43,981 bases of DNA from an uncultured Bacilli bacterium. Its GTDB lineage: Bacteria; Bacillota_I; Bacilli_A; RF39; UBA660. Every line of letters begins with the position of its first letter. Position 1 is the stretch's first letter. The notes under the pieces were generated by a model that had not been told where the DNA came from, ran no database searches, and saw nothing but the letters and a program-made list of their open reading frames with translations. A program made the position numbers and the translations under genes. Positions 8,762 through 19,659 of the stretch are shown piece by piece. Location of the stretch: contig CANRDL010000005.1 of assembly GCA_947629405.1 (NCBI GenBank), positions 1 to 43,981 of the forward strand, in the 5' to 3' direction.

Positions 8762-8787
8762 AAAAAAAAACTTCTTAAGAAGCTTTT
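8762..8787 (-). terminator. Intrinsic terminator closing the surface-protein cluster
   Basis: Minus strand reads AAAGCTTC, loop TTAA, GAAG then nine T. The stop codon of the 209-aa Big_2 protein lies in the loop. It separates the surface island from lgt-trxB. Confidence 0.7.
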
Positions 8788-9404
8788 TCTGTTACTGTAA
8801 CAACACATGTTGCTACTTTGTTTTCTAAATTATAAGCAGTTATAACTGTTACACCAGTACTTTTAGCTGTTACTACACCACCATTTACAGTAGCAACAGA
8901 TTCATTTGATGAGTCCCATCTAATATCTTTTTCTGTTGCATTAGATGGTACAACTGTAGCAGCTAAAGTTTGAGATGTACCAACTTCAAGTGATAAAGTT
9001 GTTTTATTTAAAGTTATAGATTGTGTTTTTACACTAGCAGCTTTTACTGTAATATTACATTCAACATATTTTCCAGCAGTATCAATAACTTTTACAGTAG
9101 TAGAACCAACTTTTACACCAGTAACACGACCACTAGTATTAACTGTTGCAATTGAAGTATCAGCAACTTCGTATTTTAACGAAGAACTATTTAGAGCAGT
9201 TGCTTTAATATCAACATAATCTCCTACTTCAACAGTTAATGCTGATGAATCTAAAGATATATCAGCAACACCAGCTTTAAATAATGTTCCACCTAAAGAA
9301 CCATTAGGTCCAAAAATATAATATGCTCCACCAATTAACAATAATGCTACAACAACTAATATTATAGTTGTACTAATTTTTTTCTTTTTTTCTATTTCTT
9401 TCAT
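8775..9404 (-). CDS. Small membrane-anchored protein with two Big_2 (Ig-like) domains
   Basis: A 209-aa protein: a lysine-rich N-terminus, one membrane anchor (about residues 12-31, IILVVVALLLIGGAYYIFG), then two bacterial Ig-like Big_2 domains outside the cell. The first (about 45-122) has SALTVEVGDYVDIKATA...IATVNTSGRVTGVKVGSTTV. The second (about 125-207) has ITLNKTTLSLEVGTSQTLAATVVPSN, split by alternating core positions, and ESVATVNGGVVTAKSTG. Big_2 domains are structural or adhesive spacers. It is the last gene of the cluster, 13 nt from the cohesin-like 199-aa gene, and has a strong SD AGGGGGAG. Confidence 0.9.
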   Translation of the reverse strand: MKEIEKKKKISTTIILVVVALLLIGGAYYIFGPNGSLGGTLFKAGVADISLDSSALTVEVGDYVDIKATALNSSSLKYEVADTSIATVNTSGRVTGVKVGSTTVKVIDTAGKYVECNITVKAASVKTQSITLNKTTLSLEVGTSQTLAATVVPSNATEKDIRWDSSNESVATVNGGVVTAKSTGVTVITAYNLENKVATCVVTVTEKAS

Positions 9405-9417
9405 AATTACTCTCCCC

Positions 9418-10017
9418 CTAAATTTTTAATTTTTTCTTATTTAATACTATCAAGCCAATAATACCTAAAGCAACTATTAATAAACCGATATAAGCAATAT
9501 TTTCGTTTGCAGTATGAGGATTACTTTGTTGAGCAGAAGTTTGATCAGATTCAGCTGTTTCTAAAGGTTCATTTTCAAATGTAGCAGTTATATCAGCTAA
9601 GTTACAATCATCTTCAGTATTAAATGTCATACTCTGACTACTTAAAGTAACATTTGAAGGATCATTAATACTATCAATAGTTAATTTAAGTATATTAGTT
9701 GTATCTGTAGGTGCAGGTGATATCAATGTCAAAAAATTTCCATTTGATGATTCAAATGATGAACCGCTACTTACACCACTTATAGTATCCACTGATTTTA
9801 ATGTTGCATTACTTAATGTACCAGAATACGCACTAATATCTTTATACGTTCCTGGACTTATGGACAATGCACATTCCGCTGTTGTTCCACCAGTATAACT
9901 ACAACTTAATGATGTACTAGCATCTGTACATGTGCCTTTATCTTCTGCAAATACTGTAAATGGAACTAATAATAATGATAAAATGAATAAATAATATATT
10001 ATTTTATTTTTTTTCAT
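9418..10017 (-). CDS. Membrane-tethered protein with cohesin-like domain and NPxT-type tail
   Basis: A 199-aa protein with a signal peptide (1-24, cleavage after VFA), a beta-rich domain (about 27-150) with four Cys (30, 39, 49, 138), a short Ser/Thr/Gln linker, then NPHTA (166-170), a hydrophobic segment (about 174-192) and KKKLK. The domain order resembles cohesin: a Cys-bracketed first strand, ISAYSGTLSNATLKSV as the equivalent of 'aysgtlkyd..kL..vsv', then ILKLTIDSI and a late Asp-rich strand. The tail looks like a sortase signal of the NPxTx class or a simple membrane tether. It overlaps the upstream gene by 14 nt. The cohesin call is inference from pattern. Confidence 0.68.
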   Translation of the reverse strand: MKKNKIIYYLFILSLLLVPFTVFAEDKGTCTDASTSLSCSYTGGTTAECALSISPGTYKDISAYSGTLSNATLKSVDTISGVSSGSSFESSNGNFLTLISPAPTDTTNILKLTIDSINDPSNVTLSSQSMTFNTEDDCNLADITATFENEPLETAESDQTSAQQSNPHTANENIAYIGLLIVALGIIGLIVLNKKKLKI

Positions 10018-10579
10018 TTTTATTTCCTCCTTTTTTCTTTTTTATTAATATAATTATTGCTACTATTAATGCTATCGGAATTAAAATCAACAATGAAACA
10101 ATAATTAATGCTTTACTACTAGGAAATTCATAATAAAAAGAATAATTATCGCCTTTTACAGAAGTAAAATTGCTAATATCAGTAGAAGAAATATCAACTA
10201 TATCAACTTTTAATTCTTTAGCACTTTTATCAATTGTTAAATTTATACTTCCTACCTTAATCTTTGATTTCCATTCTCCAATATATAGTAATCTATTATT
10301 GTTAAATCCTCCGTTAAATTTTTCATTTGGAGTAAATGAATTAAGTTTAACACCTTTTCCTAATATAATATCAGCTTGTATCCCATCAAAACTTCCACCA
10401 TTTGAATTTGCATATAAATCACATACAATTGCTGTTCCTTTTTCAATTTTAGATGGACACTTTAAATTTACGCTTAAATCTTTTTTTGCAGCAGCAACAT
10501 TAAAAGGAAGAATAACAATTGATAAAAATAAAATTAAATTAGTAATTAATATTATATTTATTTTTTTATTCCTTATCAC
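10004..10579 (-). CDS. Membrane-tethered protein with cohesin-like domain
   Basis: A 191-aa protein: a signal peptide (about 1-31, ending VAAA), one beta-sandwich domain (about 33-150), and a C-terminal membrane helix (about 159-182) with a KKKKGG tail. The domain follows the cohesin pattern: LSVNLKCPSKIEKGTAIVC, then SFDGIQADIILGKGVKLNSF (the 'G(i/l)q.di.yd...l' strand), RLLYIGEWKSKIKVGSINLT (the 'i.iaw....i..g.la.l.f' strands) and KVDIVDIS..DI at the end. It starts at GTG 10579 after AAGGTGG. It sits beside three genes ending in dockerin-like domains, which supports the reading. A different Ig-like or CBM fold is the main alternative. Confidence 0.7.
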   Translation of the reverse strand: MIRNKKINIILITNLILFLSIVILPFNVAAAKKDLSVNLKCPSKIEKGTAIVCDLYANSNGGSFDGIQADIILGKGVKLNSFTPNEKFNGGFNNNRLLYIGEWKSKIKVGSINLTIDKSAKELKVDIVDISSTDISNFTSVKGDNYSFYYEFPSSKALIIVSLLILIPIALIVAIIILIKKKKGGNKNEKK

Positions 10580-10643
10580 TCTTTTTCACCACCTTTATTC
10601 TTTTTCATAATAACAAAATATTCATTTTTTAACTTTATTTAAA

Positions 10644-13016
10644 TCAACTCCTAAACAAACTACTTGATGAACTAATAGAACTTGAACTTGAACTTGAACT
10701 TGAAATGCTCGAACTTGATGAAGAAGTAGTAGAATTATAGGTACTAATTTTACTATATGAACCAAGTATAAAGAATCCAACATCCTTTACATTTATAAGA
10801 TCAATTCCATTAGGATTTATTACATCAAAATGAGCTTTATAAATTGAGAAGTTTTTAGCATTTAAAATTTTAGGAGATTGTAGATAGTAATAAGAAATTA
10901 TTGAATAATCTGTTTGATTAACAACTTTATCACTATTAATATCAAAAATTTCATTTAAATAAGTTTTATTATCACTACTCGTTCCTGGAGTATTTGATCC
11001 AGGAGTACTTGAGCTTGGTGTACTTGAGCTTGGAACACTCGAACTTGGTGCGCTTGAACTTGGTGTACTTGTACTTGGATCACTCGAACTTGGAGTTGAT
11101 GATTTATTGTCTTTTCTTAAATTTAAAGTATATGTTTTAGTTGCCGTTCCATTTATTACAATTATCAAGTATGTGTTTATTTCTTTTAAGCCACCTGCTA
11201 TAACACGACTAGCAGTTCCTACTCCACTTACACAACCAGTTGTACCATCTGAATTACAAATTTTAACTGTTGCTTTGGAATCAGTAGCTGTTGCTAATAT
11301 TGGTCCTCCACCAATGTCTGTTATTATATCAGTTGTATATACTGTATTATTAGGATTAAAATCATTTATTTTAAACCAATTAGTTGGTGATGTTATGCTT
11401 TTCAATGTTGCATCGTTATTACCAGAATTTCCATTGTCAGTCTTTACAACATTAGCAGTAGTTTCATTTATAATAACATTAACACTTTTTTTAATTGAAG
11501 AATCAAGTTTTGATGTAGCGGTAATAGTTGCTATTCCAGGTTTTTCTCCATAAATCATTCCATTATCAGTAACACTCGCAATAGTAGAATCGCTTGTTGT
11601 CCAATTAACTTCTCGATTTGTAGCATTACCAGGAAGTACTATTGCTGTAATTTCAAAAGATCTACCTTGATTTAAATAAATATTATTACTTTGATTTAAC
11701 ACAATTTTTCTTGGATTCATTCTAGCTGTTGCTCCACTCTTTAATTGATAAGTAATTATATAGAATTTAGTTGTATCACCATTAATTACTTCTAGATAAT
11801 AATTACCACTTTGAGCATCTTCAAGATTAACATAACATGTATTACCACTTTGATAAATTCCATTTGTCGTTTTATAATAATCCGTTATTCTACATGTAGC
11901 ATTAGAACTATTTGGTGTAACTTTAAAATATAGTTTTCCATTATGTTTAACAGTATAATGTCCATCAGTATCTTTAGTACTAGTTTCATCACTATTTACA
12001 GTAAGACTTTTAATAGATACATCCTTCATACTAGAATCACTACTAACTACATTCAGTTTATAATTTCTTGATTCTTTTCCGTTTGTGACAGTAAAAGGAT
12101 AACTTCCAGTCTTAATACCGGCATATAAACCACATTCGGAATCTTTAGAAAATTTACTTAAAGAGCTAGAAGTAGTTGTAAAATTACAATAAGCTCCTAA
12201 ATCACCAGCTTTTACTCTAATTTCTCCAGTTTTAAATAATACATTATATTCTCCATCGTCTATTTTTCTAACTATATTACCTAAACCATATGCTGTAACA
12301 GATGATACTGAAGTACTATATCCACTAGTAGGAGTTAAAGCAATTAAATAATATTTTGCAGAATTTCCATTAGTTATTTTTATTTTATATGTACCTTTTT
12401 TAAATCCTTCTTTTTTTATAGTACATGTATTCTTATTTGATACAAGTCCACTAGTTATTCCAGTTGATGTTACTTCACATTTAGCAGAACTAGAACTAGC
12501 AACTATATTAATACTAGATGTATCATTAGTATAAGTATAATGATAATAATCATTTATATATGTTTCTAATTTTTTTCCACTATTATCCGTCACACTTTTT
12601 AAATTTACATTACTCAAACTAGAATCACTATTTTTTACATCTATAGTTAATACCTTAAAATATTGGGGATTACTGAAATTATCATTTTCTGAAAATATTT
12701 TTACTTCATATTTTTTAGATGGAATAGATCCATAAATTGTACATTTATTACCCATAGAGCTTACATTAGTTGTAACATTTTGAAAAGCACATCTTAAATT
12801 ACCAGAAGAAGTAGTTACTGTTATACTACCGCCATTTGCATTACTAACAACATAATTATATTCACTAACTTTCCTTATTGTTGTGGAAAATTTATCAGAC
12901 TCCACAGAGCCAACTCTAAATGTATCAGTAATTATAGCTTTGGCACTTATAATTGAAAAACTACTAATACAAATTACTAAAATAAAATATATATTAAATT
13001 TTAAAATTTTCTTCAT
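10644..13016 (-). CDS. Secreted modular surface protein: four Cys-pair modules, Big_2, Ser linker, dockerin-like end
   Basis: A 790-aa secreted protein with a signal peptide (1-27). Residues about 45-425 hold four tandem cadherin-like beta modules, each with one Cys pair 16-19 residues apart (76/92, 180/198, 277/295, 375/394). Then come a Big_2 domain (about 433-520, LPGNATNREVNWTTSDSTIASV), another cadherin-like module, a linker of five to six TPSSS/APSSS units, and a dockerin-like region (about 690-755) with the EF-hand loop DINSDKVVNQTD. A poly-Ser tail ends the protein and no C-terminal anchor is seen. Probable role is adhesion or surface-layer structure, with attachment through the dockerin-like end (inference). 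SD TAGGAGAAG is good. Confidence 0.82.
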   Translation of the reverse strand: MKKILKFNIYFILVICISSFSIISAKAIITDTFRVGSVESDKFSTTIRKVSEYNYVVSNANGGSITVTTSSGNLRCAFQNVTTNVSSMGNKCTIYGSIPSKKYEVKIFSENDNFSNPQYFKVLTIDVKNSDSSLSNVNLKSVTDNSGKKLETYINDYYHYTYTNDTSSINIVASSSSAKCEVTSTGITSGLVSNKNTCTIKKEGFKKGTYKIKITNGNSAKYYLIALTPTSGYSTSVSSVTAYGLGNIVRKIDDGEYNVLFKTGEIRVKAGDLGAYCNFTTTSSSLSKFSKDSECGLYAGIKTGSYPFTVTNGKESRNYKLNVVSSDSSMKDVSIKSLTVNSDETSTKDTDGHYTVKHNGKLYFKVTPNSSNATCRITDYYKTTNGIYQSGNTCYVNLEDAQSGNYYLEVINGDTTKFYIITYQLKSGATARMNPRKIVLNQSNNIYLNQGRSFEITAIVLPGNATNREVNWTTSDSTIASVTDNGMIYGEKPGIATITATSKLDSSIKKSVNVIINETTANVVKTDNGNSGNNDATLKSITSPTNWFKINDFNPNNTVYTTDIITDIGGGPILATATDSKATVKICNSDGTTGCVSGVGTASRVIAGGLKEINTYLIIVINGTATKTYTLNLRKDNKSSTPSSSDPSTSTPSSSAPSSSVPSSSTPSSSTPGSNTPGTSSDNKTYLNEIFDINSDKVVNQTDYSIISYYYLQSPKILNAKNFSIYKAHFDVINPNGIDLINVKDVGFFILGSYSKISTYNSTTSSSSSSISSSSSSSSSISSSSSLFRS
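10678..10704. repeat. GAACTT hexanucleotide microsatellite
   Basis: About 4.5 copies of the 6-nt unit GAACTT, encoding the Ser-Ser tail of the 790-aa surface protein. The unit length is a multiple of three, so slippage would change the tail length without a frameshift. Confidence 0.8.
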
Positions 13017-13112
13017 TTTCTTCTCCTACTATCTAATGTTACTCTAATACAAATTTAACATAATTAAGAATAATAATCAATCATAATATGACAATTTTTT
13101 ACATATTTATAA

Positions 13113-16100
13113 TTATTTTTTATATAAAATATATTGACCTACTGATGAAACATCATTTAAATCTATTCCTGCTGGATTGATTAAATCTAATTGTTCTTTC
13201 CATTCTGAATACTTTTCATTATTTAAATATTTTGGAGAATTTAAATATATATAACTTATAATTGAATAATCTGTTATATTAACAATACCATCCTTATTTA
13301 TATCATATAATTGTTCTTTTTCTCCTTTACTTAATGCTTCGCTAGTTGTTGGTTCTGTTATTGTTACATTTATAGTTTTTTGACTATTACCGGATGCTTT
13401 TGAAGTAATTTTTAATGTCGTTGTACCAACGTTTACACCATAAATCATTCCATTTTCATCTACTGTTGCTATACTTTCATCAGCTGTTTCCCATGTTACT
13501 TCTCTATTTGTTACTGTTCCTGGTAATACTATTGCTACTACTTCTGTTGATCTTCCTTTATTTATTTTTATTTCTTCGTTATTTACTATTATTTTCTTTA
13601 CTGTATTTTTCTCTTTTTCGATAAGTTCTGTATAATCTGTTGCTGGTTTTTGGACAATTGGTGCTGAGCTTGAAGGTGTTGGTGTAGTGGTTTGAGTTAT
13701 AACTGCAAATCCATCTACTGTTGTATTTGTCTTTGTATTATAATTTGGTTTTACTGAATATCTTCTTATTTCTCCTGTTTTATAATAAATCTCTATTCTA
13801 CCTATTCTTTCATATGCTGCTTTTTGTAACAATGGTGTTGATTCTGCACTTGTTCCTTGCGCATATGTAGTATATTCTTTACCATTATTTTTATTATTTG
13901 TATACCAAATCCATTTACTTATTTTACTTGGATCTGCTATTTTTATCTTGTAAGTTGCCAAAGTATCAGTTATTGATACTAATTCAATACTAAATTCATT
14001 ATAAATTGCATTAGTTTTAGAATTATAATTTGGCATTACTATCCATTCTTTTATATTTCCATTAGTATAATATTTTGTTATTCTTCCAACTCTATTATAG
14101 CTTGTTTTATCTAAAGTAGGTGTTGAACTTGTTCTTGTACCTTGATTAAACAATGTATAATTTTTTCCATTATCTTTATTATTTGTTGACCATATCCATG
14201 ATTTTAAATTAGTATTTTTCATTCCTATTGTATATTGTATTCGATTATTATTTGGATATTTAATACTTAAACTAAAATCATTTGTATAATCAGTACTTTG
14301 AGCAATTTTTGGAACATTAGTTATTGAACTTGCTGCTGTTGCTGCAGCTGTTCCCTGAATAGATATATTAAATGTATATGTTTTTGTTGCTCCGTTTTCG
14401 GCTTTTACTGTTATTGCTATTTTTTTGGAATTTGTAATAGTATGCTCTGCTTGATTATTTACCATTCCTGATGGTGAAGTTATTACTGCTCCTTTATTTG
14501 TTGGATATGCTACTATTTCGAATTTTTTTGTTCCACTTGGTAAAATTATATTATATGATGTTGTATTTTTATTAAATGTTTTATCCCAAATTGTTTTAAT
14601 TGTTGTTCCAGTTTTAGTTGTATTATCATATCCACTAGTTTGATATATTGTAAATGACTTTAATGTTGCATCACTACTTTTAGTTGTCGGCTTAGCTGCT
14701 CTTTTTATTTTTATAGTATAATCTTTATTTTTCTTTCCGTTTTCTGATTTTACATTTATTGTTTCTGTTTTTGTCTTTCCAGCTTCTACATTCCATGTTA
14801 CTACTTTATCTTTTTTTAATCCAGCTGGTTTTGTTATTGTTGATTTTGGATTTTTAGTTACTACATTTACTTTTACTTTTGTTACTCCATTTGCTACTGT
14901 GGCACTATAAGTATTTCCACTCTTACTTACGTCAAAACTAGCTCCTGTACTAGCATTTTTTACTGTTATAGCACTAATTGCTGTGTCAGATTTATCAGTT
15001 GTTGTAGCCGGTTTAGTTGTAGTGGAATTTACCGTTATACCAGATGTAGTTGAAGCTACTGCAGTTGTTGCTTTACTACTTGCTACATTGCTACTTGTTG
15101 CTTTTTTATTTATAACTTCTACATTTACTACTTTTTTAACACTTGTCTTTCCTTTTGCAGTAACTGTTATTTTGGCTTTACCAACTTTTTTACCAGTAAA
15201 GTTTCCTTTTGAATCTACAGTCACAATTTTTGTATTGTTTGATTTAAATGATACATTTTTATTTGTTGCATTTGTTGGCTTAATTGTATAGTTTATCTTT
15301 TTACTTTTTCCAACTTCAACCATTCTATCTGTATCTTTTATTGTTATACTTGTAGGTTTTACATTCTTTGAAGAAGTTGCTTTTTTGGAAGAACTTACTT
15401 GTTTTGATGAACTAGTTTGATTAACTACAGTGGTAGTATTTGTAGTAGTATTCTTTTTTATAATACTAATTTTTTCTGTATAATATGTAGCTTGATGGTT
15501 TTTATTGGCAATTTTAATAGTAGATGTTCCTACTTTTTTACCGGTAATTTTACAACCATTACTTATCGCTGTTATTGTTACATTAGAATTGTTTGCTGAA
15601 CAAACAATAGCAGTACTTGAAGTTATATTTGTTGAAGATCCTTTTTGAATAGTACTATTAGGATCAGTATAATAAAATTTATAATTTTTAGTTGTTGTAT
15701 TCTTTGATTTATTCTTTGATTTATTATTTGATGTATTTTTAGATGTTCCACTATTATTAGTAGTATTAGTAGAAGCTGCTGGTGTTAAAGTTACAGAACA
15801 ACTAGCTGTTTTAGTATTTCCATATTTTGTAGTATATGTAGCCTTAACTTTAACTGTAGCACTTGTATTTTTATTTAATGTTAAAGTATTACCGGAAATG
15901 GATGCAGAAGTTGATTCAATACCATAACTACAACCATCAACCAACACAGGATTAGATTTGCCATAACAATCAATATGAGCTGTAGAAGGCTTTTTATATT
16001 TTTTTGTAAAACGTGAATTTACATAATCAAATCCGGCTGGGCAAGCATAATAGGAATTACCCCACGTATCATTCTTACCTGTAAAAATTGATTTAGTTTT

Positions 16101-16412
16101 ATAAAGATCTGTATAATATCTTTTACATGATAATATAGCCTTATTAGAACTAGTTTTAGTACATGTTACGGAAATTGAATTCAATTTACTATTATATGGT
16201 GTTTTTCCAGCATACGGAGATGTAATTGAAGCATTAAAATTTGTGTCGCTTAAATTAGTATTATTAGTAAAAAACATAATACCTACACCAATAGCAATTC
16301 CTACAATTAAAGTTATTCCTACAATTAGGAATGGTAACTTAAAATGAGTTAAATTATTTATTTTTTTACTCTTATTATTAGTTTTTTTATTAGTATTTTT
16401 CTTTTTATTCAC
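13113..16412 (-). CDS. Giant anchored surface protein with Big_2, cadherin-like, W-repeat and dockerin-like domains
   Basis: About 1099 aa. A basic N-terminus is followed by one membrane anchor (about 28-50, VGITLIVGIAIGVGI), identical in core to that of the 991-aa paralogue. Outside it are a Cys-rich region (about 60-200), Asn/Ser/Lys linkers, a Big-like domain, a Big_2 domain near 360-440, cadherin-like modules (SSDATLKSFTIYQT...ENGATKTYTFNI), two copies of a Trp-containing repeat, a Big_2 domain and a dockerin-like C-terminus (about 1032-1099) with DINKDGIVNITD. I choose GTG at 16412: SD GGAGAG is 8 nt from it but only 2 nt from GTG 16421. Probable role is surface adhesion or assembly. Confidence 0.82.
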   Translation of the reverse strand: MNKKKNTNKKTNNKSKKINNLTHFKLPFLIVGITLIVGIAIGVGIMFFTNNTNLSDTNFNASITSPYAGKTPYNSKLNSISVTCTKTSSNKAILSCKRYYTDLYKTKSIFTGKNDTWGNSYYACPAGFDYVNSRFTKKYKKPSTAHIDCYGKSNPVLVDGCSYGIESTSASISGNTLTLNKNTSATVKVKATYTTKYGNTKTASCSVTLTPAASTNTTNNSGTSKNTSNNKSKNKSKNTTTKNYKFYYTDPNSTIQKGSSTNITSSTAIVCSANNSNVTITAISNGCKITGKKVGTSTIKIANKNHQATYYTEKISIIKKNTTTNTTTVVNQTSSSKQVSSSKKATSSKNVKPTSITIKDTDRMVEVGKSKKINYTIKPTNATNKNVSFKSNNTKIVTVDSKGNFTGKKVGKAKITVTAKGKTSVKKVVNVEVINKKATSSNVASSKATTAVASTTSGITVNSTTTKPATTTDKSDTAISAITVKNASTGASFDVSKSGNTYSATVANGVTKVKVNVVTKNPKSTITKPAGLKKDKVVTWNVEAGKTKTETINVKSENGKKNKDYTIKIKRAAKPTTKSSDATLKSFTIYQTSGYDNTTKTGTTIKTIWDKTFNKNTTSYNIILPSGTKKFEIVAYPTNKGAVITSPSGMVNNQAEHTITNSKKIAITVKAENGATKTYTFNISIQGTAAATAASSITNVPKIAQSTDYTNDFSLSIKYPNNNRIQYTIGMKNTNLKSWIWSTNNKDNGKNYTLFNQGTRTSSTPTLDKTSYNRVGRITKYYTNGNIKEWIVMPNYNSKTNAIYNEFSIELVSITDTLATYKIKIADPSKISKWIWYTNNKNNGKEYTTYAQGTSAESTPLLQKAAYERIGRIEIYYKTGEIRRYSVKPNYNTKTNTTVDGFAVITQTTTPTPSSSAPIVQKPATDYTELIEKEKNTVKKIIVNNEEIKINKGRSTEVVAIVLPGTVTNREVTWETADESIATVDENGMIYGVNVGTTTLKITSKASGNSQKTINVTITEPTTSEALSKGEKEQLYDINKDGIVNITDYSIISYIYLNSPKYLNNEKYSEWKEQLDLINPAGIDLNDVSSVGQYILYKK
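13433..13615. repeat. 183-bp segment shared with the neighbouring paralogue (copy 1)
   Basis: By eye, 182 of 183 bases match 16949-17131 in the 991-aa gene; the difference at 13577 is silent. It encodes the central part of the C-terminal Big_2 domain, while the flanks have diverged. Such a local near-identity suggests recent gene conversion or strong constraint. Confidence 0.85.
13695..14290 (-). repeat. Tandem protein repeat with Trp core (two copies, about 95 residues each)
   Basis: Within the 1099-aa protein two adjacent stretches share the pattern W-I-W-x-T-N-N-K-x-N-G-K, then QGT, STP, Y-x-R-x-G-R-I, YY, G-x-I, and PNYN-x-KTN. They are diverged at DNA level but clearly homologous. I do not recognise the family; it looks like a small beta domain. 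Confidence 0.75.
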
Positions 16413-16452
16413 AAAAATCACTCTCCAAAATATCGTTACCTATTATAAGTAA

Positions 16453-16482
16453 ATTTTATCACTGACTATTATATAATGTCAA
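16453..16482 (-). promoter_or_regulatory. Promoter of the 1099-aa surface protein gene
   Basis: Minus strand -35 TTGACA (16477-16482), an 18-nt spacer and -10 TAAAAT (16453-16458), about 40 nt ahead of the GTG start. The gene upstream has its own terminator, so the two giant genes are transcribed separately. Confidence 0.65.
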
Positions 16483-16577
16483 ACTTTTTTCGACAATTCT
16501 CAACATTTTAAAAATAAATATCTATGTTTAAAATGTTTAATTTTAACGATATATAAAACCAACATATAATTTTCATT

Positions 16578-16612
16578 AAAAAAAATTGTAAAATTATTTA
16601 AATTTTACAATT
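16578..16612 (-). terminator. Intrinsic terminator after the 991-aa surface gene
   Basis: Twelve-bp perfect stem AATTGTAAAATT/AATTTTACAATT (16584-16595 with 16601-16612), a 5-nt loop and eight T on the minus strand, overlapping the stop codon. Confidence 0.85.
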
Positions 16613-19586
16613 ATTCTTTATATAAAATATAATGTCCTATTGAAGAAATATCATTTAAATCTATTCCCGCAGGATTAATTAAGTTTAATTGATTTTTCCA
16701 TTCTAAATATTTTTCATTATTTAGATATTGTGTATTATTTAAAAATATATTTGATGCTATTGCGTAATCAGTTCCATTAATAACATTATCTTTATTTATA
16801 TCATATAACTTTTCTTTATCAATAGTATTATTGATATTGTTAATATTATTAGTATTATTAACTGTTGATTCATTTATTGTCACATCTATAGTCTCTTGTA
16901 CTTCAGGATCTGAAACAGATGTGGCAATAATAGTAGTTGTCCCAGCACTTACACCATAAATCATTCCATTTTCATCTACTGTTGCTATACTTTCATCAGC
17001 TGTTTCCCATGTTACTTCTCTATTTGTTACTGTTCCTGGTAATACTATTGCTACTACTTCTGTTGATCTTCCTTTATTTATTTTTATTTCTTCATTATTT
17101 ACTATTATTTTCTTTACTGTATTTTTCTCTTCTTCTATTTCTTCTAGGCTAATTTCATCATCATTTTCATCTTCTTCAGGTTCAACATAATCTCCGTCGC
17201 TATCATTCTCTTCTTCAGGTTCAACATAATCTCCGTCGCCATCATTCTCTTCTTCAGGCTCAATATAATCTCCGTCGCCATCATTTCCTTCTTCTTCAGG
17301 TTCGATATACTCTCCGTCGTCATCATTTTTGTCATCAATTGTACTACTTAAACTACCTTTAACTGTCATATTAAATGTATAATCTTTTATTGTTCCATTT
17401 TCAGCTTTTACTGCTATTTTTATTGTTTTTTTATTAGTTATTGTGTATTTTGCTTGATTATTTTTCATTCCATTCGGTTTATTTATTACTGCTCCATTAT
17501 CATTTGGATACGCAACAATTTCAAAGTCTTTTGTTCCACTTGGAAGTGTTATATTATATGTCGTCTTATTTTTATTAAATGTTTTATCCCAATCACCTTT
17601 TATTTCTTTTCCTGTTTTAGTTATCTTATTATAACCGGCTGTTTTATATATCTTAACTGATTTTAAAGTGGCATCACTACTCTTAGTTTTTGGTTTTGCT
17701 TCTCTTGTTATTTTTAATGTATATTGATTTTTATTGTTTCCGTTTTCTGATTTTACTATTATTTTTACTGTTTTTGTCTTTCCAGCTTCTAATTTCCATG
17801 TTACTGCTTTATCGCCTTTTAAACCTGCTGGTTCAGTTATTGTTGCCTTCGGATTTTTAGTTACTACATTTACTTTTACTTGTGATATAGAATTTGCTAC
17901 TGTTGTACTATATGTATCATTATTAGAATTATATTTTACTGTAGCACTTGCACCAGTGATTGCATCCTTTACGGTTAACGCACTAATTTTAGCATTTCCT
18001 TTTCCTACGGATGATGCCGCTTTACTTGATGATACTTTACTTGATGATACTTTTGGTTTTGAAGATGCCGTTGCTTTAGTGCCTTTAATATTAATGGTAT
18101 AAGTTTTTGTAGTTCCATTTTCAGCTTGAATTTTTAAACTTATTGTTTTTGTTTTATTTGCTTCGATTGTATAAGTTTCATTTAAATCTCTTAACCCTGA
18201 TGGTGTTAAAACTGTTGCATATTGATTATTAAGTTTTACTTCTAAAGTCTTTTTACCAGCTTCAACACTCACATCATAACCATATTTTTCTTTTACAATG
18301 CTGACATTTTTGTTACCAACTTTTAAAGATTTTAAAGTTGCATCACTACTTTTTACTCTTACAGTATCTGTTGTGTATTTTGTTGCTGAAGTACCACTTG
18401 TAGAAGTTATTTTAAAGGTATAAGTTTTTGTAGTTCCATTTTCAGCCGTTACTATTATAGTTGGAGTCCTTGTTTCTCCAGCTTTAAAACCATATTCTGC
18501 TTGATTATTTTTCATTGCATAAGGATAGCTTATTATAGCACCATTATCATTTGGATACGCTACTAATTTTATAGAATTTACTCCGCTTGGTAATTTTATA
18601 TTATAAGATATTGTATTTTTATTAAAACTTTTATCCCAAGATGCATTAACTTCTGTACCTGTTTTTGTTGTTGCATTATAACCGGCTGTTTTATATATCT
18701 TAACTGATTTTAAAGTGGCATCACTACTCTTAGTTTTTGGTTTTGCTTCTCTTGTTATTTTTAATGTATATTGATTTTTATTGTTTCCGTTTTCTGATTT
18801 TACTATTATTTTTACTGTTTTTGTCTTTCCAGCTTCTAATTTCCATGTTACTGCTTTATCGCCTTTTAAACCTGCTGGTTCAGTTATTGTTGCCTTCGGA
18901 TTTTTAGTTACTACATTTACTTTTACTTGTGATATAGAATTTGCTACTGTTGTACTATATGTTTCATTATTAGAATTATATTTTACTGTAGCACTTGCAC
19001 CAGTGATTGCATCCTTTACGGTTAAATCACTGATTTTTGTATTTCCTTTTCCTACTGATGATGATGTTACTTTACTTGATGACGCTTTTGGTTTGCTAGT
19101 TGATGATGCTTTACTTGATGATGTTTTTGGTTTTGAAGATGTCGTTGCTTTAGCTCTTGTCATTACTAATTCATAATCTTGATGATTTTTCTTATTCGCT
19201 GAATATACTCTAATTTTTTTCTTTTTTGGTTCTCCAGCTTTTAAATCATATTCTTGAACTTTATCTTTTAATCCACTTGGCTCCGATATAGTTGCTTTAT
19301 TATTTGCAGTTGTTATTTTTATTGTTACTTTTGATACATTGTTTGCAACATTTACATTATATGTATTTCCACTTTTTTTTACATTGTTTGTAGAACCATT
19401 GGCAGTTAAACTTTTTATTGTAGCATTCCCATTTCCAGCGTTTGCCTCATAATTAGTATTGCTTAATTTAGTAGGTGAGGATAAAAAAATAATACCTACA
19501 CCTATAGCAATTCCTACTATTAAAGTTATTCCTACAATCAATAATGGTAATTTAAAATGATTTGTTTTTTTATTATTTATTTTCAT
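16611..19586 (-). CDS. Giant anchored surface protein with repeated cadherin-like modules, acidic repeats, Big_2 and dockerin-like end
   Basis: About 991 aa, a paralogue of the next gene. A membrane anchor (about 15-37) is followed by alternating cadherin-like modules: a KIS(D/A)LTVKDAITGAS type and an SSDATLKSVKIYKTAGYN type with ENGTTKTYTFKI ends, joined by Ser/Lys linkers. One 351-bp block occurs twice. Four acidic DGDYxEPEEE units follow, then a Big_2 domain nearly identical to the paralogue's and a dockerin-like C-terminus with DINKDNVINGTD and LINPAGIDLNDISSIGHYIL. ATG at 19586 has the strong SD AAGGAG 7 nt upstream; the more upstream in-frame start at 19646 lacks one and overlaps the promoter. 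Likely a surface fibre or adhesin. Confidence 0.83.
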   Translation of the reverse strand: MKINNKKTNHFKLPLLIVGITLIVGIAIGVGIIFLSSPTKLSNTNYEANAGNGNATIKSLTANGSTNNVKKSGNTYNVNVANNVSKVTIKITTANNKATISEPSGLKDKVQEYDLKAGEPKKKKIRVYSANKKNHQDYELVMTRAKATTSSKPKTSSSKASSTSKPKASSSKVTSSSVGKGNTKISDLTVKDAITGASATVKYNSNNETYSTTVANSISQVKVNVVTKNPKATITEPAGLKGDKAVTWKLEAGKTKTVKIIVKSENGNNKNQYTLKITREAKPKTKSSDATLKSVKIYKTAGYNATTKTGTEVNASWDKSFNKNTISYNIKLPSGVNSIKLVAYPNDNGAIISYPYAMKNNQAEYGFKAGETRTPTIIVTAENGTTKTYTFKITSTSGTSATKYTTDTVRVKSSDATLKSLKVGNKNVSIVKEKYGYDVSVEAGKKTLEVKLNNQYATVLTPSGLRDLNETYTIEANKTKTISLKIQAENGTTKTYTINIKGTKATASSKPKVSSSKVSSSKAASSVGKGNAKISALTVKDAITGASATVKYNSNNDTYSTTVANSISQVKVNVVTKNPKATITEPAGLKGDKAVTWKLEAGKTKTVKIIVKSENGNNKNQYTLKITREAKPKTKSSDATLKSVKIYKTAGYNKITKTGKEIKGDWDKTFNKNKTTYNITLPSGTKDFEIVAYPNDNGAVINKPNGMKNNQAKYTITNKKTIKIAVKAENGTIKDYTFNMTVKGSLSSTIDDKNDDDGEYIEPEEEGNDGDGDYIEPEEENDGDGDYVEPEEENDSDGDYVEPEEDENDDEISLEEIEEEKNTVKKIIVNNEEIKINKGRSTEVVAIVLPGTVTNREVTWETADESIATVDENGMIYGVSAGTTTIIATSVSDPEVQETIDVTINESTVNNTNNINNINNTIDKEKLYDINKDNVINGTDYAIASNIFLNNTQYLNNEKYLEWKNQLNLINPAGIDLNDISSIGHYILYKE
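16949..17131. repeat. 183-bp segment shared with the neighbouring paralogue (copy 2)
   Basis: The counterpart of 13433-13615, encoding the same Big_2 core (KKIIVNNEEIKINKGRS and on to ENGMIYGV). The identity ends sharply at both sides. Confidence 0.85.
17172..17330. repeat. Four tandem acidic repeats (39-42 nt units)
   Basis: Units start at 17172, 17211, 17250 and 17292 and encode variants of NDGDGDYVEPEEE in the 991-aa protein. Three periods of 39 nt and one of 42 nt are visible. The strongly acidic, regularly spaced Asp/Glu suggests a flexible or Ca-binding linker before the Big_2/dockerin-like end. Confidence 0.9.
17628..17978. repeat. 351-bp internal direct repeat, copy 1
   Basis: Matches 18675-19025 at 350 of 351 positions by eye; the single difference (17916 against 18963) changes Asp to Glu. 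It encodes the end of one cadherin-like module and the start of the next, so the repeat border is not a domain border. Confidence 0.92.
18675..19025. repeat. 351-bp internal direct repeat, copy 2
   Basis: Second copy, 1047 bp (349 codons) away and in the same frame. Recombination between the copies would add or remove 349 residues without breaking the frame. Confidence 0.92.
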
Positions 19587-19630
19587 AAAATATCTCCTTA
19601 AGAAATACATATCGTACTTATTATACTTAC

Positions 19631-19659
19631 ATAATATCATTAGCAAATAGAAAGTTCAA
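19631..19659 (-). promoter_or_regulatory. Promoter of the 991-aa surface protein gene
   Basis: Minus strand -35 TTGAAC (19654-19659), a 17-nt spacer and -10 TATTAT (19631-19636), about 45 nt ahead of the ATG. The remaining sequence 19660-19787 is AT-rich and I see no other feature in it. Confidence 0.65.

Follow-up and report, generated by a model that had tools for sequence, protein, structure and literature searches.

We identified a cluster of six genes that probably encodes a small, non-cellulosomal cohesin-dockerin attachment system, in its fibre version, in a 43,981-nucleotide stretch of DNA (hereafter the window) from an uncultured Bacilli bacterium (GTDB lineage Bacteria; Bacillota_I; Bacilli_A; RF39; UBA660; assembly GCA_947629405.1, contig CANRDL010000005.1). 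Three large fibre proteins (1011, 1102, and 790 aa) end in or near a dockerin-type module that is predicted to bind cohesin domains on two small anchored neighbours (191 and 199 aa). ORF (open reading frame) calling in the window showed that all six genes are genuine, closely spaced, and in the same direction on the minus strand (Table 1). A scan of this AT-rich DNA for promoters and terminators gave no informative signals. Together with its relatives, the locus is best read as part of a lineage-wide non-cellulosomal cohesin-dockerin attachment system. The bond between a cohesin and a dockerin is one of the strongest known between proteins, and the pairs have been studied almost wholly as parts of cellulosomes; copies outside the cellulosome have long been called enigmatic. 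Since the partner genes are adjacent here, the candidate dockerin of each cohesin is obvious, and a non-cellulosomal function can be tested directly.

Dockerin-type modules of the fibre proteins

A module of about 70 residues recurs in all three large proteins (the others having 54-71% identity to the first in the alignment), with the motif that an earlier note on this DNA had described. That note placed the module at the end of all three proteins; this holds for the 1011- and 1102-aa proteins, but the 790-aa protein continues beyond the module with about 40 residues of Ser-rich tail. The first loop and second half read DINKDGIVNITD then LINPAGIDLNDV..YIL in the 1102-aa protein, DINKDNVINGTD then LINPAGIDLNDI..YIL in the 1011-aa protein, and DINSDKVVNQTD then VINPNGIDLINV..FIL in the 790-aa protein. 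Loop 1 follows the consensus DIN(K/S)Dxx(V/I)NxTD, with 4/4 ligands present in all three modules, and the consensus of the second half is (D/N)xINPxGIDLxx(V/I). When loop 2 is aligned as a 12-residue loop, positions 1 (D/N), 9 (D), and usually 12 (D or N) are kept, and positions 3 and 5 have lost their ligands to I and P, confirming what had been noticed before; 1-2 of 4 ligands remain. The internal symmetry of the modules (0.08-0.17) is the lowest among all dockerins that we compared.

By sequence, these modules are dockerins, because a profile built from the three window modules only retrieves dockerins first among all PDB sequences (best E 7e-5; each of the top 15 matches is a dockerin or a cellulase that bears one), and because the same locus in a sister species passes the Pfam cut-off (see below). 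The degenerate second loop had been taken as a sign that the binding mode may be new, which is unnecessary, since single-interface dockerins and dockerins with an unrecognisable second repeat are already known from Ruminococcus flavefaciens (PMC5429695, PMC2930009). Profile searches of the host genome (88.7% complete) gave no further dockerin or cohesin match, so the cluster is self-contained, as had been proposed.

Cohesin-fold and candidate cohesin domains of the small anchored proteins

In both the 191- and the 199-aa protein, a beta domain lies between two hydrophobic segments, one at each terminus, as described earlier, except that the C-terminal segment of the 199-aa protein looks like part of a sortase-type signal and not like the plain membrane anchor then assumed. 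Single-sequence searches of PDB with the two proteins found nothing relevant, and a profile of the fibre-linked cohesins (A4) matched PDB cohesins weakly (E 0.4-0.9); we therefore modelled the 191-aa domain with AlphaFold2 (AF2), using an alignment of five relatives from the related-locus search and leaving out the cohesin of the sister species. The model is all beta (pLDDT 86.5, pTM 0.79), and a Foldseek search of PDB matched it to Clostridium perfringens cohesins at TMq 0.75-0.79, and also to CaCohA2 and to cohesins of C. cellulolyticum and Archaeoglobus fulgidus (the cohesin structures among the matches are 2vo8, 2jh2, 2w1n, 6kgc/6kgf, 1g1k, 2vn5, and 2xdh). Thus the modelled fold is that of a cohesin, and the domain is not one of the unrelated Ig or CBM type.

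At the sequence level, homology between the fibre-linked domains and true cohesins is demonstrable through a bridge, the profile of a second, SagB-linked group of cohesins (A12): hhalign aligns A4 to A12 (97.1%, E 7e-11), and A12 matches PDB cohesins at E 2e-7. One A12 member (L080) exceeds the cut-off of PF00963, with 32.8 vs 24.1 bits. In the host genome, A4 finds the 191-aa domain at E 1.8e-33 (the profile contains that sequence). Every fibre-linked domain in A4 has two cysteines 12-13 residues apart, which fall in the first two strands of the model and presumably form a disulfide between them; this pair is not invariant in the SagB-linked domains.

The 199-aa protein is probably a weaker, divergent cohesin candidate: it scores 13.8 bits (E 0.001) against A4 in an HMM (hidden Markov model) search, and hhalign matches it, paired with its sister-species orthologue, to A4 (85.5%, E 5.7e-6). 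Its C-terminus carries NPHTA, and the sister-species counterpart NPNTA; these tails fit the series found in many anchors of relatives (NPKTG, NPDTG, NPQTG, or NPPTG, followed by a membrane segment), and look like candidate sortase signals. The host genome contains three sortase-domain matches (Table 1), one of them inside a 519-aa open frame, which is long for a sortase.

Conservation in the sister species and across the family

The sister species (genome G035) keeps the locus of the window, with orthologous flanking genes on both sides and the same gene order: two dockerin proteins, cohesin-like genes of 185 and 207 aa, a double Big_2 gene, and an lgt-like gene. Both dockerin proteins exceed the Pfam cut-off (26.2 and 27.6 bits), and both calcium loops are canonical in their dockerins. 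The 790-aa fibre is homologous to a 589-aa dockerin protein of this species (36% over 490 aa), the 209-aa double Big_2 protein shares 71% identity with its counterpart (blastp), and the domain of the 199-aa protein shares 20% with its orthologue, which matches the cohesin profile at E 4e-5 (the profile being built without that sequence).

Across 145 genomes of the family, A4 cohesin-like domains occur in 37 and Dockerin_1 matches in 110. Of the 26 cohesin-like genes scoring above 50 bits, 20 lie within 1.5 kb of a gene on the same strand whose product ends in a dockerin; in most of these pairs the two genes overlap or are separated by less than 20 bp. Some of the 26 loci helped to build A4 and had been noticed through their neighbours, and we therefore counted the loci outside the A4 build separately: seven of these 11 are paired (L106, L115, L116, L117, L118, L119, and L122) and four unpaired (L105, L120, L121, and L123), where the rough chance rate of a dockerin neighbour is about 2% per locus. 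The relatives that bear names are metagenome-assembled genomes labelled Bacilli or Tenericutes bacterium, with gut sample names (rabbit, goat) in three of four genomes. A search with profile A5 for related loci gave 5 true ones; 3 Bacteroidia loci from the same search, with long protease-like proteins and a short chance motif match, were discarded.

The dockerin partners carry varied domains (Table 1). At L029, which has three similar dockerin genes in tandem, papain-family cysteine protease domains occur together with LysM and with dockerin ends, and at L034 a papain-family cysteine protease domain ends in a dockerin; the neighbour of the protease-dockerin genes at both loci is a large anchored cohesin/Cadherin-like protein. 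Three single proteins combine an N-terminal cohesin-like domain with a C-terminal dockerin, the arrangement that would be expected of chain-forming adaptors.

A second cohesin clade next to SagB-like glucosaminidases

We picked 30 loci of the family by Pfam Dockerin_1 score alone, and in 29 of them the next gene after the best-matching dockerin gene codes for the same type of membrane protein, homologous among these loci, whose N-terminal domain is cohesin-like. Where scanned, the dockerin proteins of such loci mostly resemble SagB, the glucosaminidase of peptidoglycan release: an NCBIfam scan matched SagB in 11 of 12, well below the strict cut-off of the model. In a tree, the SagB-linked and fibre-linked cohesins form two separate groups (support 100/100). 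Loop 2 is full in 18 of 19 SagB-linked dockerins and in 7 of 23 fibre-linked ones, and their internal identities are 0.68 and 0.45, respectively (p about 4e-5 and 2e-5). Selection accounts for part of this contrast, because the SagB set was picked for its high Pfam scores and such scores favour symmetric dockerins. Neither a SagB-like dockerin protein nor an A12 cohesin was found in the genome of the window, at its 88.7% completeness.

This candidate tether for a peptidoglycan hydrolase was the surprise of the analysis, and the SagB-linked pair is possibly more interesting than the window itself. In Staphylococcus aureus, SagB works with the membrane protein SpdC and cuts nascent glycan from the membrane (PMC12272431). 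Here too, a partner is predicted to keep the SagB-like protein at the membrane; the two proteins differ from the SagB-SpdC pair in that the enzyme ends in a dockerin and its partner in the membrane bears a cohesin.

Proposed mechanism and alternative explanations

In the mechanism that we propose, the Big_2/Cadherin-like fibres would be exported, and their C-terminal dockerins would plug into the single cohesin of a short tether, the 191-aa protein being held in the membrane and the 199-aa protein probably linked to the wall by sortase. The fibres would then be held on the cell, possibly for adhesion, by a strong, probably calcium-dependent, non-covalent bond, and the three would compete for or share the two anchors. 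The loop-1/helix-1 face is the likely binding face, and each dockerin would probably bind in one orientation, because the second calcium loop is degenerate.

Several results weigh against a cohesin-dockerin pair. The first Foldseek match of the 191-aa domain by E-value is a CLIPPER adhesin domain, at a lower TM (0.66), and many integrin beta-sandwiches are also among its matches, at similar E-values (within about one order of magnitude). PF00963 (Cohesin) matches neither small protein, nor anything in the host genome. PF00404 (Dockerin_1) gives 15.9 and 17.0 bits for single window proteins, the third not being listed, with a cut-off of 22.9, and AF2 modelling of one window dockerin (from the 1102-aa protein) reached pLDDT 72, with 50-57 in the four other models and no significant match in a fold search, and was unused as evidence. 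Cohesin-like genes lack a dockerin neighbour at L031, L120, L121, L123, and L105, and cohesin-like matches below 50 bits, which we did not count as evidence, are paired in 5 of 17 cases. The CLIPPER match (a stalk domain), the integrin matches, and the missing Pfam cohesin match would suit small domains that are generic beta-sandwich stalk or adhesin modules, with the dockerin-like modules binding some other cohesin or extracellular partner. We consider this improbable, as it accounts neither for the close association of these genes with dockerin genes in many genera nor for the link in sequence to true cohesins, and the searches of the host genome (88.7% complete) showed no other cohesin. Even less probable, to a degree that we give it little weight, is that the C-terminal modules act as end caps stabilised by calcium or serve for self-association (dockerin-dockerin or EF-hand-like) instead of binding cohesins: the degenerate loop 2 and the low internal symmetry agree with such a role, but loop 1 is fully conserved in the three window modules, and the sister species has both loops at the same locus beside the same cohesins.

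Two further possibilities are variants of the cohesin-dockerin attachment that we favour. The 199-aa protein may be an unrelated sortase-anchored domain of the same operon, leaving the 191-aa protein as the only cohesin; the low profile score and the 20% domain identity even to its orthologue speak for this, whereas the hhalign match of the orthologue pair to A4 and the match of the orthologue to a profile lacking it speak against, and we regard it as unlikely but worth keeping in mind. Rather less likely, two fibres could, as the earlier note proposed, be permanently anchored in the membrane at their N-termini as well as docked at their C-termini, and form loops on one cell (in cis) or links between cells (in trans). 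The N-terminal hydrophobic segments of the 1102- and 1011-aa proteins indeed lack an obvious signal-peptidase site (1102-aa: residue 26), but hydropathy, the basis of this assignment, cannot tell an anchor from a signal peptide, which these segments could be; the N-termini of the 790-aa fibre and of several relatives are signal-like, and nothing points to trans contacts.

Comparison with known systems

The proposed cohesin-dockerin attachment system of the window would work like a non-cellulosomal pair and is not a cellulosome, because it has neither a scaffoldin nor plant-polysaccharide enzymes. A scaffoldin with several cohesins is absent from the window and from the relatives examined, with one clear cohesin per protein, and the term scaffold in the earlier note is better replaced by a docking or anchoring pair. 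No dockerin was seen on plant-polysaccharide enzymes or CBMs: the dockerin proteins of the window have Big_2 and Cadherin-like domains only, and those of relatives are proteases, leucine-rich repeat (LRR) proteins, and glucosaminidase-like proteins. That note had also described an assembly without carbohydrate enzymes, which is right for the window, where a Pfam scan found no carbohydrate-active domain among the cluster proteins, and too broad for the relatives, whose apparent cargo includes a SagB-like glucosaminidase and a protein with a phosphodiester-glycosidase domain.

R. flavefaciens has a sortase-anchored cohesin (ScaE), and its cellulosome includes dockerins on LRR proteins, transglutaminases, and peptidases, so that LRR and peptidase cargo is shared with the family studied here. 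Its single-binding-mode or degenerate dockerins (PMC2930009, PMC5429695) are a likeness to those of the window; in contrast to R. flavefaciens, we see no scaffoldin and no plant-cell-wall enzymes, the genomes are of 1.1 Mb, and cohesin and dockerin genes are adjacent. The glycosidase cohesins of C. perfringens (2jh2, 2vo8, 2w1n), the best fold matches of the 191-aa domain, are likewise single cohesins outside a cellulosome, and the FIVAR-dockerin of its hyaluronidase (2jnk/2ozn) appears, as a hyaluronidase dockerin construct, in the search with the family dockerin profile. The modules of C. perfringens sit on secreted carbohydrate enzymes, whereas in the window a membrane or wall tether bears the cohesin, and the dockerin belongs to Ig/cadherin-like fibres. 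Archaeal proteins (A. fulgidus 2xdh; ANME, PMC9012536) also combine cohesins and dockerins without cellulose degradation, with a proposed role in surface attachment; those of ANME comprise multi-cohesin scaffoldin-like proteins and ABC-transporter binding proteins, whereas this Bacilli-type lineage has one cohesin per tether, beside the partner gene. The mucinolysome of Limousia (PMC12997984) is another recent gut cohesin-dockerin system not aimed at cellulose, but it has multi-cohesin scaffoldins and many glycoside hydrolases, which are absent here.

Thus the kind of system is already known, with precedents in C. perfringens, archaea, and R. flavefaciens, and single-mode dockerins have been published (PMC5429695). 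In the one open-access library that we searched, we found no description of its lineage-wide use in small Bacilli-type genomes, or of tethering of a peptidoglycan glucosaminidase. On balance, we lean slightly towards a broader view, in which small-genome, mostly gut-derived Bacilli use cohesin-dockerin pairs as a general surface-attachment code, with at least two cohesin clades that each have their own dockerin style (nearly symmetric on SagB-like peptidoglycan glucosaminidases; asymmetric on fibres, LRR proteins, and proteases) and with membrane or sortase anchoring. If this is true, an uncultured Bacilli lineage builds its surface, including adhesin-like fibres and proteases, with such pairs; in many genera a peptidoglycan glucosaminidase is held at the membrane, a new job for cohesin-dockerin; and the lineage is a source of many new natural, possibly orthogonal, pairs. 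In these bacteria, a coupling familiar from the digestion of cellulose seems to serve generally to hold proteins on the cell.

Features of the window and of related loci

Table 1. Positions of the cluster genes, their predicted modules, and selected features of the host genome and related loci.
Feature	Position	Strand	Description
Fibre protein 1 (1011 aa, longest ORF)	16611-19646	-	ATG at 19586, the end given in the earlier note, yields about 991 aa
Fibre 1 architecture	16611..19586	-	N-terminal hydrophobic segment, several Cadherin-like (PF12733) repeats, acidic repeat linker, Big_2, C-terminal dockerin-type module
Dockerin-type module, fibre 1	16611..16823	-	DINKDNVINGTD ... NLINPAGIDLND; alignments; Dockerin_1 17.6 bits in host genome, sub-threshold
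Fibre protein 2 (1102 aa)	13113..16421	-	N-terminal hydrophobic segment, Big_2 x2, Cadherin-like, dockerin-type module (ORFs and Pfam)
Dockerin-type module, 1102-aa fibre	13113..13322	-	DINKDGIVNITD ... DLINPAGIDLND; Dockerin_1 27.5 bits summed over the frame, above cut-off
Fibre protein 3 (790 aa)	10644..13016	-	N-terminal signal-like segment, beta domains, Big_2, dockerin-type module, Ser-rich tail
Dockerin-type module, 790-aa protein	10761..10967	-	DINSDKVVNQTD ... DVINPNGIDLIN; Dockerin_1 E 0.007 (protein), 20.8 bits (six-frame search)
191-aa protein	10004..10579	-	N-terminal signal-like segment, cohesin-fold domain, C-terminal membrane anchor with KKKK tail
Cohesin-fold domain of 191-aa protein, residues 31-150	10130..10489	-	AF2 and Foldseek; Cys pair conserved in alignment
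199-aa protein	9418..10017	-	N-terminal signal-like segment, probable divergent cohesin domain, NPHTA-hydrophobic-KKK tail
Candidate sortase sorting signal of 199-aa protein	9421..9522	-	NPHTA, hydrophobic stretch, KKKLKI (NPHTANENIAYIGLL..LNKKKLKI)
209-aa protein	8775..9404	-	N-terminally anchored, double Big_2 (Pfam Big_2 75 bits); conserved in cluster
Sortase-domain matches, host genome	G000:C23:2117-2602, C18:20246-20614, C20:8462-8953		1.13-Mb genome
SagB-like glucosaminidase with C-terminal two-loop dockerin and ~415-490 aa membrane protein	L134:840-3831 (G035), loci L074-L103		Many genera
Big_2 partners	L026, L115
LRR partners	L028, L030, L122
Papain-like protease partners	L029 (10372-17453), L034 (15280-18366)
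NAGPA-domain partner	L116
Cohesin-like plus dockerin proteins	L118:7982-8914, L122:6640-8259, L038:8654-10300		310, 539, and 548 aa

In fibre 1, the Cadherin-like repeats score 117 bits over 6 stretches and Big_2 scores 47 bits in Pfam. Within the same protein, a stretch of well over 100 residues occurs twice in nearly identical form (DLTVKDAITGASATVKYNSNN... / ALTVKDAITGASATVKYNSNN...), and its Big_2 block is almost identical to that of the 1102-aa protein; the internal repeat and the common block suggest recent duplication or recombination. Among the related loci, L107 (= L030; 11527-19787) has ten tandem paralogous genes of ~240 aa (M(N/E)ENNGKGIFYGVIGVATLIVAIIGATFAYF...) directly after the cohesin gene, whose products resemble, by eye, secreted proteins of the TasA/camelysin type.

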